Of a DNA stretch of 42,347 nt, positions 15,394 to 37,912 are shown in pieces; the first letter of the stretch is position 1; every line of letters begins with the position of its first letter. Under the pieces are notes generated by a model that did no database searches, was not told the DNA's origin, and saw only the letters and a program-made list of their open reading frames with translations. The DNA comes from Planctomycetota bacterium. Lineage in GTDB: Bacteria; Planctomycetota; Phycisphaerae; Sedimentisphaerales; Anaerobacaceae. The DNA lies in assembly GCA_023135865.1 (NCBI GenBank), contig JAGLSG010000021.1, forward strand, positions 1-42,347, given 5' to 3'. The translations under genes were made by a program, and so were the position numbers.

Positions 15394-15646
15394 ATTCGTA
15401 CCTCGTATTTCGCCTGCCCTGAGCTTGTCGAATGGGTTTAGCTCTGCCACCCCTGTCCTGAGCGTAGCCGAATGGCTGTGGACAGGGATTGTTTAATCGC
15501 TGATTGCGCTGATTAACGCAGATTTTTTTGTCATTGCGAGGCCTGTTTTTCAGGCCGCGGCAATCTCAACCTTTCGCACTTTCACACCTTTCACACCTTT
15601 CACACATTCGCACCTTATCCTGAGCCACGTCGAAAGATTCTCAATT
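15394..15646. repeat. dispersed repeat mosaic between the ABC ATPase and GNAT genes
   Basis: Holds CCCTGAGCTTGTCGAATGG and CCTGTCCTGAGCGTAGCCG strings (about 15416-15475), a TTTAATCGCTGATTGCGCTG element (15495-15525) and a GTCATTGCGAGGCCTG element (15530-15570). A run of TTTCACACC units follows (15577-15617), then a triple ATTCTAAATTCTAA. No gene. Confidence 0.75.
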
Positions 15647-16297
15647 CTAAATTCTAAATTCTAAATTTTTATAAATCACTTCCGCCGGGCCGGCCAAATC
15701 TTTAACGACCAAAACGTCCGGCTCAAGGTCAGCCAAAATATCATCGTGGCTCGAAGCGAGAACAAAAGTTACTCCATTTCGTTTTGCGAATTTGTAAATC
15801 TGATGCGAAATAACAGCTGCTGTGATTCGGTCGAGATTGCTGCAAAATTCGTCAGCGAAAATGAATTTTGTTTTTCTCGCAAAAGCCATTGCCAGCCGAA
15901 ATCTATATTTCTGGCCGTCGCTCAAATTCACCGGCTTAGCAAGAATTGTAAATACATCATTTAATCCGGCGCAGCTGAGCAACTTCAAAGCCGTCATCAC
16001 ATCGCCGTCAATGCAATCGATTAGCGTTTTGTCTTTTGCCAGTTTTATTTCATTCAGATTCGTTCGCTCTTTTTTAGGAATGGCTTTTTCAAGCTCACGA
16101 AGTAAGACACTTTTGCCGGCCCCGGAAGAGCCGGTTATGTAAATCACATCAGCTGGTTTTATTTTTATTTTGCAGCTGTGCTCAACCGCCCTCTCGCTTA
16201 GTGCGTCAGTTGTTACGCCGAATATCTTGCAGATGGCAACGACCTTATCTGTAATCTCGGCCTGCCAGGAAAAACTTTTGCAAACACAAAGTTCCAT
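15647..16297 (-). CDS. ABC-type ATPase of the COG2401 type
   Basis: 216 residues from the ATG at 16297 (MELCVCKSF), with GGGGG about five bases upstream. The frame open further upstream is repeat-derived. ATPase motifs in order: Walker A GSSGAGKS (56-63), a signature LSDGQKYRFRLAMA (125-138, Asp for the usual Gly), Walker B KFIFADE (144-150) and the switch His in ASSHDD (His184). There is no membrane domain, so it is a soluble ABC ATPase rather than a transporter subunit. Next to the GNAT gene it reproduces the COG2401 architecture as two polypeptides. The role in this terminase/ParB cluster is unknown. Confidence 0.75.
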   Translation of the reverse strand: MELCVCKSFSWQAEITDKVVAICKIFGVTTDALSERAVEHSCKIKIKPADVIYITGSSGAGKSVLLRELEKAIPKKERTNLNEIKLAKDKTLIDCIDGDVMTALKLLSCAGLNDVFTILAKPVNLSDGQKYRFRLAMAFARKTKFIFADEFCSNLDRITAAVISHQIYKFAKRNGVTFVLASSHDDILADLEPDVLVVKDLAGPAEVIYKNLEFRI

Positions 16298-22665: not shown

Positions 22666-22960
22666 AACCGCAAAAGCCCGAATATCCGGTCAGCCAAAAT
22701 CCGCACTATCAGTGTCTGATAATTTGCTCATTGTCAATACTGATAATCGCAATTTGAAACCGTAATTCACAACTTATCCACAAAAACGACTTACATTGTG
22801 CAAAACCGGTTAAAAACTTTTTTTTTTCACACATAAACTCAATGCCAACAGCAACATTGCCAACGTGGAAAAGTTTTTCCTTAAAACCGCATTGATTTAT
22901 CTTTCAACATTTCAATAATGAACAACAACTAACACGAACAACTGCGAGAAAAAGGGGCAT
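22666..22960. promoter_or_regulatory. region upstream of dnaA with DnaA box; possible origin
   Basis: A consensus DnaA box TTATCCACA lies at 22774-22782. It is followed by A/T-rich tracts (TTAAAAACTTTTTTTTTTC at about 22812-22830) and TTTATCTTTCAACATTTC near 22893. Only one perfect box is visible, so this could be an autoregulatory site for dnaA or part of oriC. No gene lies here. Confidence 0.4.
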
Positions 22961-23181
22961 ATGCAATGCGAGCAATAGTTATGGACGAGCGGAGCAGACG
23001 GGAAATAATCATGGATGAGCGGAGTAATCAAAGCGTAATTGTTGGGCAGAGCAGATAGGACGTAATCATGGATGAGCGGAGTAATCAAAGCGTAATTGTT
23101 GGGCAGAGCAGATAGGACGCAGTCATGGATGAGCGGAGTAATCAAAGCGTAATTGTTGGGCAGAGCAGATAGGACGTAATC
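22961..23181 (+). promoter_or_regulatory. dnaA leader: chain of short upstream ORFs
   Basis: ATG at 22961 (after AAGGGG) encodes MQCEQ and stops at 22976-22978, two bases before the next ATG at 22981. That ATG opens a 25-codon frame that stops at 23056-23058. ATGs at 23068 and 23125 each open a 15-residue frame (MDERSNQSVIVGQSR) ending in TAG at 23113-23115 and 23170-23172. Each TAG is part of TAGGAC, so the stop overlaps the Shine-Dalgarno AGGA of the next ATG seven bases on. The last ATG of the chain is dnaA itself at 23182. The three longer uORFs are in the dnaA frame. This is the geometry of termination-reinitiation coupling; its use in vivo is inference. Confidence 0.6.
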
Positions 23182-23211
23182 ATGGATGAGCGGAGCAGAC
23201 GGGAAATAATC
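22981..23211 (+). repeat. tandem repeats of 30 and 57 bp, arranged A-B-B-B-A
   Basis: Unit A (30 bp) is at 22981-23010 and 23182-23211. Unit B (57 bp) is at 23011-23067, 23068-23124 and 23125-23181. All units begin ATGGA(T/C)GAGCGGAG. Copies are almost identical (B2 differs in CGCAGTC for CGTAATC). Both lengths are multiples of three, so the repeats keep the dnaA reading frame. The last A unit forms the first ten codons of dnaA. Confidence 0.9.
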
Positions 23212-24714
23212 ATGGATGAGCAAAACAGTTGGGGCGTGGTTACAGCCGAACGAAATACCATCGCAGAGAAGACAAATAAATCTCGGCTAATCGAAAATCA
23301 AATAAAACAAACGCCGTCCAGCTGCGACCAGACAGCTGTTATCACCCAACATCTCGCTGAGAACATCGGCCATCAAAAATTCGGAATATGGTTCAAAAGC
23401 TCAACAAAATTCACGCTGACAAATAACTATCTCAACATTGCAGCTGCCAATCTTTTCATAGCCGGCTGGCTCGAAAAACATTTTCAAACCGAAATAAAAC
23501 AGGCAGCAAAAACAGTAATTGCAGGCGAGCCGAAAATCGTTTTCACTATCGATTCGGCACTTGGCAGCTTACAAAAAAAATCGCAGCAGCCAATCGAAAA
23601 ACACCGTCCGCTAAACCGAAACAGTAACTTCAATTCGAAAACTATTCTGCAATCACCAAAAAGAAAACAGCTGAAACTGCATCTCGATACATTCATAGTC
23701 GGCTCTGGAAACCAACTCGCATATAACGCAGCGAAAGTCATAATAGCCGAGCAAAAAAGCCCTTTCAATCCGCTCTTTTTTCACGGCGGATACGGAGTCG
23801 GCAAAACACACCTGATGCAGGGAATCTGTAATGCCGTCTGCCAAAAACGGCCGCAAACCAAATGGATGTATATGTCCGCTGAGGACTTCGCAAACCAATT
23901 CGTGCTGGCCTTGAAAACAAGAAAACTGGAGAGCTTTCGCAATCGGATCAGGCAAACGGATTTGCTCGCTATAGACGACATCCATTTCCTGGCCAGCAAG
24001 CCATCAACGCAGGAGGAATTTCTGCATACTTTCAATACTATAGATTTGGCCGGCAAGCAGGTTATCCTGGCTTCCGACGCTCATCCCAAAATGATTGGCC
24101 AGCTCTCGGAAAAACTTGTCAACCGATTCGTTTCAGGGATGGTAGCCAGCATTGAAGCGCCGGATTTGGCAACCCGCCAAAAAATATGCAAACAATTTGC
24201 AATACATCTCAAGACGCATATCCCTGAAAGCGTAATTCATTACGCCGCTGAAAACGTTCGCAGCAACATCCGCGAACTGCAGGGAGCAATGCTCAAACTG
24301 ACCGCGTTTGCTTCGCTGCAAAATCAAAAAATATCTCTGTTTATGGCCAAAGAAGTGCTCGCCGAACATCTCGAAAGATGCGACCCGATTGTGCATATTT
24401 CCGACATTGAATCGGAGGTAGCTGAATTTTTCCAGCTGACCCCGGCTGACCTGCACTCTGCGAAAAAAAATAAAACCGTATCACTCGCCCGGCATTTTGC
24501 GATGTATCTCACACGTAAACACACAAATATGTCGTCAGCTGAAGTCGGCCGTTTTATGGGCAATAAAAATCACGCCACCGTACTGATGGCCTGCAAAAAA
24601 ATCGAAGGTTGCATCAAACGAAACACAGAATTAACGTGGAAAATAACCGCTGGCAATAAAATCTCAAAAGCGAGAACGATACTTGCAAAGTTAGAAGAGT
24701 ATATAGCCGGTTAA
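23182..24714 (+). CDS. dnaA: chromosomal replication initiator protein DnaA
   Basis: Binds DnaA boxes and opens the replication origin. Domain I is at about 50-110 (ITQHLAENIGHQKFGIWF, then NIAAANLFIAGWLEKHF). A linker follows, then the AAA+ domain with Walker A GGYGVGKT (202-209), Walker B LLAIDDIHFL (261-270) and sensor II-like NVRSNIRELQGAM. The C-terminal box-binding domain has VSLARHFAMYLTRKH and MGNKNHATVLMACKKI. It has 510 residues from ATG 23182, which has AGGA seven bases upstream. ATG 23212 (MDEQNSWG) is a possible start; the ten residues between are a repeat unit. Neighbours are not dnaN/recF, as is common in planctomycetes. Confidence 0.95.
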   Translation: MDERSRREIIMDEQNSWGVVTAERNTIAEKTNKSRLIENQIKQTPSSCDQTAVITQHLAENIGHQKFGIWFKSSTKFTLTNNYLNIAAANLFIAGWLEKHFQTEIKQAAKTVIAGEPKIVFTIDSALGSLQKKSQQPIEKHRPLNRNSNFNSKTILQSPKRKQLKLHLDTFIVGSGNQLAYNAAKVIIAEQKSPFNPLFFHGGYGVGKTHLMQGICNAVCQKRPQTKWMYMSAEDFANQFVLALKTRKLESFRNRIRQTDLLAIDDIHFLASKPSTQEEFLHTFNTIDLAGKQVILASDAHPKMIGQLSEKLVNRFVSGMVASIEAPDLATRQKICKQFAIHLKTHIPESVIHYAAENVRSNIRELQGAMLKLTAFASLQNQKISLFMAKEVLAEHLERCDPIVHISDIESEVAEFFQLTPADLHSAKKNKTVSLARHFAMYLTRKHTNMSSAEVGRFMGNKNHATVLMACKKIEGCIKRNTELTWKITAGNKISKARTILAKLEEYIAG

Positions 24715-37520: not shown

Positions 37521-37783
37521 AGCTGAAATCAGGGTAAAACTAAAATATAGATAAAAAGCAAGCGGCGGCATCATTTTTCCAGTGATGCCGCCGCCGATGC
37601 TCCCCATTAAAGGGCATTTCAAAAACAACCAACCAAATCGAGGAGGAGGAGAGAGAGCAAATTTATCTTTTATTAAGTTTTTAATTTAGCTTTTAATATA
37701 GTTCTTACTCTTACTATGACTATATTACGTTTTTTGGCGTTTTGGTTCAATTGCGGTAACTACGGGATTTTGGATAGAAGTTT
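37521..37783. other. hairpin and purine tract downstream of the 36762 gene
   Basis: A 12-bp perfect stem GCGGCGGCATCA (37562-37573) / TGATGCCGCCGC (37583-37594) with a nine-base loop is followed by CGAGGAGGAGGAGAGAGAGC (about 37640-37659) and a T-rich tract. It is similar in layout to 24751-24800 after dnaA. Probably a transcription-end structure; no start codon follows the purine tract. Confidence 0.55.
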
Positions 37784-37912
37784 AAAACTTAAAGTGTAAA
37801 ACTCAAACCCAAAACTCAAAGCTCAAAACGTTCAGCTGACGCTGAAACCGGCCATTGGCAGTTTTGAATTTTAAGCTGTGGTTTTTAGCTTTTAGCTTTA
37901 AGTTTTCAGCTT
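37784..37912. repeat. A/T-rich 130-bp imperfect palindrome, copy 2
   Basis: AAACTTAAAGTGTAAAACTC and AAAACTCAAAGCTCAAAAC mirror GTTTTGAATTTTAAGCTGTG and TTTTAGCTTTAAGTTTTCAG around a GAAACCGGCCATTGG centre. It closely matches 16312-16440. Confidence 0.8.

Follow-up and report, generated by a model that had tools for sequence, protein, structure and literature searches.

The level of DnaA helps to determine the timing of replication in bacteria. Short upstream ORFs (uORFs) can deliver ribosomes to the gene that follows them by translational coupling, and a review of this subject also covers the mycobacterial interspersed repetitive units (MIRUs), short repeats inserted at start codons whose small ORF is coupled to the gene at −4 nt (PMC12548453). 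In E. coli, reinitiation is strongly dependent on distance, a spacing of +14 nt lowering it by 40–80 %, and one class of gene pairs has spacings of +9 to +12 nt, enough to accommodate a Shine–Dalgarno (SD) sequence (PMC10666635). In Caulobacter, control is exerted at the early codons of dnaA, which has one start and no uORF array, through an effect of nascent-chain amino acids on elongation (PMC8443254). Finally, the copy number of phase-variable upstream repeats in M. tuberculosis alters expression by way of promoter strength (PMC12817950).

The locus described here, a tandem array of start-like cassettes in the leader of a planctomycete dnaA, is closest in form to the MIRUs. These are, however, dispersed, seemingly mobile and coupled at −4 nt, whereas our array occupies a single locus, seems to descend from dnaA itself and is spaced at +9 nt in the window; an overlap resembling the −4 nt arrangement (ATGA) was found only at dnaA of the congener, and none in the window. 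With coupled uORFs and termination-reinitiation (TeRe; PMC10666635, PMC12548453) the array shares a stop near the next start, an SD nearby and a short upstream ORF that could deliver ribosomes. Those systems usually comprise one uORF or gene pair, whereas here there is a chain of near-identical self-copies and the coupling is putative. The array does contain uORFs whose start and SD are both carried by the one predicted transcript, and stops that overlap or lie within ∼14 nt of the next start (+9 in the window; +2 and ATGA in the congener); it is plausibly best classed among translationally coupled uORFs, as a variant. Unlike Caulobacter dnaA it displays no peptide constraint, and unlike the M. 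tuberculosis repeats it is part of the leader, 3′ of the predicted promoter. No dnaA leader of this type was encountered in the literature on dnaA uORFs and leader peptides, nor any match for repeat-driven reinitiation, in a survey confined to open-licence papers, where absence is weak evidence.

Layout of the dnaA leader

The window, i.e. the whole stretch of DNA analysed, comprises 42,347 nt of contig JAGLSG010000021.1 from a Planctomycetota bacterium (GCA_023135865.1; forward strand, 1–42,347), whose own genome is available as a 1.69-Mb draft assembly. DnaA was searched for in 61 and later 89 genomes, and extra leaders were obtained by scanning a public genome collection. Once duplicates had been removed, the comparison comprised 88 leaders, namely the window, its single congener (genome G001, leader L035) and 86 others; a recognisable dnaA start motif was present in 69 relatives, which served as the basis of the start-site and promoter comparisons. 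The main limits of this sample are that the genus is represented by two genomes only and that both are drafts of many contigs, such that the copy number of the array may be wrong.

A preliminary description, made from the sequence alone, had proposed a series of 30 and 57 bp units in the order A-B-B-B-A that keep the dnaA frame, and we recovered precisely this arrangement at 22981–23211, followed directly by a further ATG at 23212 (Table 1). Each unit length is divisible by three, every cassette retains its ATG, and all six of these ATGs are in the frame of dnaA. The 14-mer ATGGAYGAGCGGAG occurs five times in the window, compared with a mean of 0.36 in shuffled sequences (n=100) that never contained five. 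Also borne out in the window was the proposal that each B unit encodes the peptide MDERSNQSVIVGQSR followed by a TAG embedded in an SD-like sequence: the TAGGA of these units overlaps an SD-like AGGA positioned 7 nt upstream of the following ATG, leaving 9 nt between stop and start. Between B2 and the other two B units there are only two base differences, both within this 9-nt linker, whilst A1 and B1 are joined in a single ORF. A genome search placed the array at one locus in its own assembly. As the congener likewise carries its array at one locus, and no match was found in phage or plasmid records, a mobile or dispersed repeat was rejected. Other short tandem repeats in the window are located at 15569–15667 and 37660–37829.

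Table 1. Features of the dnaA leader and adjacent DNA in the window
Feature	Position	Strand	Details
Perfect DnaA box TTATCCACA	22774..22782	+	upstream of promoter
Family-conserved dnaA promoter	22892..22920	+	TTGATT - 17 nt - ATAATG; predicted transcription start ∼22926
GGGG SD-like site within AAAAAGGGG	22954..22957	+	8 nt upstream of ATG 22966; duplex −7.2 kcal/mol
First uORF	22966..23058	+	30 codons, MRAIVMDERSRREIIMDERSNQSVIVGQSR-TAG; ATG is top match of family start-site profile
Repeat unit A1	22981..23010	+	30 bp
Repeat unit B1	23011..23067	+	57 bp; TAG 23056–23058
Repeat unit B2	23068..23124	+	57 bp; uORF MDERSNQSVIVGQSR; TAG 23113–23115
Repeat unit B3	23125..23181	+	57 bp; uORF MDERSNQSVIVGQSR; TAG 23170–23172
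Repeat unit A2	23182..23211	+	30 bp; ATG opens 510-aa dnaA ORF, 9 nt past last TAG
dnaA	23182..24714	+	DnaA_N, AAA+ and C-terminal DNA-binding domains

Missing from the original list of units was the ATG with the best SD, at 22966, which is situated just upstream of the array, in frame, and opens a uORF that extends to the first TAG. Its SD forms the strongest duplex ahead of any leader ATG, close to the median of the relatives (−7.9 kcal/mol), whilst values for the cassettes range from −3.9 to −5.0 kcal/mol, with the exception of 22981 (−2.2); the organism's own 16S rRNA has the usual anti-SD tail, GGATCACCTCCTTT. From ATG 22966 the frame runs unbroken into dnaA apart from three TAGs, and these stops fall 9 nt ahead of ATGs 23068, 23125 and 23182. 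Identification of the last ATG as the dnaA start held in part: ATG 23212 does open the ORF (500 aa), but so does ATG 23182. Within the DnaA tail from 23227, pN/pS was 0.38 in frame versus 0.52–1.01 in the other frames (33 codons, hence a weak signal), as anticipated for a DnaA start no further downstream than the last cassette. The predicted accessibility of the cassette starts was 0.48–0.59 (0.30 for 22981), the family median being 0.47, and the leader showed no unusual structure relative to shuffles (z = 0.60). A structured RNA was rejected on this basis and because no Rfam match attained the gathering score of its family; a leader-peptide transcription attenuator was likewise discarded, given the same folding result, the lack of a Rfam match at that score and the lack of any terminator-like site.

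A sigma-70-like promoter (TTGATT-17-ATAATA) is present in 66 of the 69 relatives, and as its counterpart in the window lies upstream of the array, the array should be transcribed. The −10 element and the conserved DnaA core are separated by 399 bp in the window and by 390 bp in the congener, versus mostly 70–255 bp elsewhere. A weak promoter-like match (TGGACG-16-AATAAT) lies inside A1 at 22982–23009, although such matches were no more numerous than in shuffles. Just 5′ of the promoter, the GTGGAAAA box (22864–22872) is a DnaA box with two mismatches on the minus strand that is common to most relatives; its conservation suggests autoregulation by DnaA.

Origin of the repeat units

In the 69 relatives, dnaA begins SD-ATG-CAG-(A/G)GC-ACA-ATC-ACG-GAT-GAG, specifying MQ[GS]TITDE and variants thereof, usually with a GGGGAGA-like SD upstream. 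We built a start-site profile from these sequences, excluding the window's own genus (consensus AAAGGGGAGAATATCAATGCAGGGCACAATCACGGATGAG), and found its top match in the window to be ATG 22966 (ATG CGA GCA ATA GTT ATG GAC GAG, MRAIVMDE), at 14.8 bits. The next five matches were the downstream cassettes (11.4–11.7 bits); in 500 simulations, the 95 % level was 3.2 bits and the maximum 10.3. The score of ATG 22966 is low compared with the relatives' median of 35.5 bits, yet still above their minimum of 13.1, whilst in the congener one of 500 simulated sequences scored 18.2, exceeding the best real match of 14.7. As the cassettes rank immediately after ATG 22966 in the profile, each ATGGATGAG copy would correspond to the old T-D-E with ACG now ATG, and the register of the alignment agrees, ATG CAG GGC ACA ATC ACG GAT GAG being matched to AGA TAG GAC GTA ATC ATG GAT GAG. 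The same Thr-to-Met change, ATC-ATG-GAT-GAG, was observed at this place in other genera that retain a normal start (MQGTIMDE, MQRTIMDE).

Thus the array very probably arose by tandem duplication of the region in which dnaA's own translation starts. The 57-bp unit would probably represent about 19 codons of the dnaA start, with a stop at old codon 2 and a new ATG at the old Thr, and ATG 22966 is probably the ancestral dnaA start. Each copy would have AGA in place of the ancestral start codon, CGG or TAG at codon 2 and ATG instead of the ACG of I-T-D-E, which provides every copy with a weak SD and an ATG and the B copies with a stop as well. This start-region origin of the units is what is new here; it is fairly well supported, and we consider it likely if not certain.

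The congener and wider relatives

In the congener, cassettes are found at 2793, 2847, 2882, 2936, 2972 and 3025 of L035, spaced by 54, 35, 54, 36 and 53 bp. The frame is lost, one cassette has CTG, and both the TAG/SD overlap and the TAG spacing are absent; instead, TAA stops are found 2 nt ahead of cassette ATGs. Congener dnaA opens at the second ATG of ATGGATGAGC (3029), where the TGA of an 18-codon uORF overlaps it (ATGA). The 1-nt insertion behind this overlap occurs in two copies, and as such a lone sequencing error is not an easy explanation. The preliminary description had called for relatives to be compared in copy number and frame, and held that one keeping the repeat while losing its ATG/TAG spacing would mark the chain as accidental. 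The congener is such a case in part: a stop near a start recurs in it, but the frame and the TAG/SD overlap are not kept.

Long and short unit types are common to both species, each having its own variants, which suggests that the array was already present in the common ancestor and was later reshaped in each species. The 14-nt core is unchanged between them, whereas 11 of the unit's 40 other aligned sites have changed (P = 0.024, a post hoc comparison). The core TAATCATGGATGAG yields a TAA or TGA a few nt from the ATG in the two frames not left open, so that the sequence itself goes some way towards placing stops close to starts. Within the long unit, the differences between the species show no preference among the three codon positions (3/4/4), revealing no coding signature and no sign that the sequence of the uORF peptide matters; selection on these peptides was rejected on this ground.

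Tandem Repeats Finder detected no comparable array in the 86 other relatives, and the array looks like a genus-specific oddity rather than an established control system. Short uORFs as such are widespread, being present in 44 of 66 relatives' leaders, but only five of the 66 have one whose stop lies between −15 and +8 nt relative to the dnaA start. In six leaders (L008, L030, L031, L072, L093 and L102), heptamer (7/14-bp) tandem repeats such as AACTCAA and AAAACTC lie near dnaA, and are unrelated in sequence to the window array.

Translation of the leader and competing explanations

In the account that we favour, ribosomes would enter at the ancestral SD and ATG 22966 and terminate at the first TAG (23056), whereupon some would restart 9 nt downstream at ATG 23068 and step on to the dnaA ORF at 23182, whilst others would load directly at the SDs of the cassettes. 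The net effect would likely be a lower or buffered yield of DnaA. The array would be tolerated because every copy supplies its own start, and frame-breaking changes because the core has a stop within a few nt of the ATG in both non-open frames. Taken together, duplication of the start region and this scheme of uORFs and reinitiation form the best overall explanation, one that we regard as reasonably probable. That ribosomes step through the leader by termination and reinitiation, as originally proposed, is in keeping with the stop 9 nt before an SD-equipped ATG and with the conserved upstream promoter. Nevertheless, with cassette SDs accessible and the leader not specially structured, ribosomes may initiate directly without any coupling, in which case the chain would not be obligatory. 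Given the distance dependence in E. coli, three steps of +9 nt could also be costly. Our best guess is therefore a mix of coupled reinitiation and direct loading, and we give roughly even chances to the narrower claim that at least part of DnaA is made by coupled reinitiation. That the array has a selected regulatory function seems unlikely.

The array could alternatively be a neutral minisatellite, i.e. a start duplicated by slippage, with the SD of the last cassette or cassettes serving to initiate dnaA, while the uORFs further upstream remain as inert or mildly costly debris. The differences in frame and stop identity between the two species, the even spread of changes in the long unit, the accessible starts in a leader without special structure and the confinement to one genus would all be expected of such debris, and we judge this a real possibility, if somewhat short of an even chance. 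It is harder to reconcile with upstream ATGs that have SDs and share the predicted transcript, and hence would be translated if nothing blocked them, and with the unchanged core (post hoc, as above) and the ATG kept by all window cassettes. A different emphasis was given by the preliminary description, which suggested a rheostat tuned by copy number; we regard this as speculation. In such a scheme, the number of cassettes would set the DnaA level through an obligatory chain of termination and reinitiation. Tandem, near-identical 57-bp copies are able to expand and contract, their stop/start geometry is suited to reinitiation, and the relatives' leaders are shorter and without such arrays; against this, two genomes provide no copy-number series for the genus, direct initiation is possible and the TAG spacing differs in the congener, leaving an obligatory chain distinctly improbable. 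We place at the same low level the broader idea that cassette number and reinitiation efficiency together determine how much DnaA is synthesised and that slippage lets this drift, via self-copied restart cassettes that offer a stop and a start in almost any frame. A duplicated start can convert a coding N terminus into uORFs, and a leader of this kind would offer an essential gene a simple way of evolving new translational control. An effect of copy number, should there be one, would provide a natural, testable dial for the timing of replication; otherwise, the locus would be a clean case of bacteria tolerating damage at an essential start site.

Two further readings dispense with uORFs. A single DnaA with a repetitive N-terminal tail could be made from ATG 22966 were the TAGs read through or recoded, as the preliminary description had also envisaged, and the frame that is open into dnaA save for three TAGs, together with unit lengths that are multiples of three, would accommodate it. 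TAG, however, appears to be an ordinary stop here: it terminates eight of the 29 long ATG ORFs in the window, no CTA-anticodon tRNA is among those found (an incomplete set, with several types missing from the draft), and the congener has frame shifts and TAA in place of TAG, so that we consider read-through scarcely credible. Slightly less remote, albeit still very improbable, is that the repeats act as DNA, in the form of iterons or sites for DnaA binding within an origin overlapping the dnaA start. A perfect DnaA box does lie upstream, and in several relatives whose record is a single contig, the dnaA orthologue stands at its beginning; yet no DnaA box with ≤2 mismatches was present inside the array, and its unit sequence is accounted for by descent from a coding start. 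Separately, a second, more distant DnaA-like gene is encoded in the window's own genome (G000, contig C58, 13573–14583; 36 % identity), and second DnaA-like copies with 31–40 % identity were found in most of the relatives searched.
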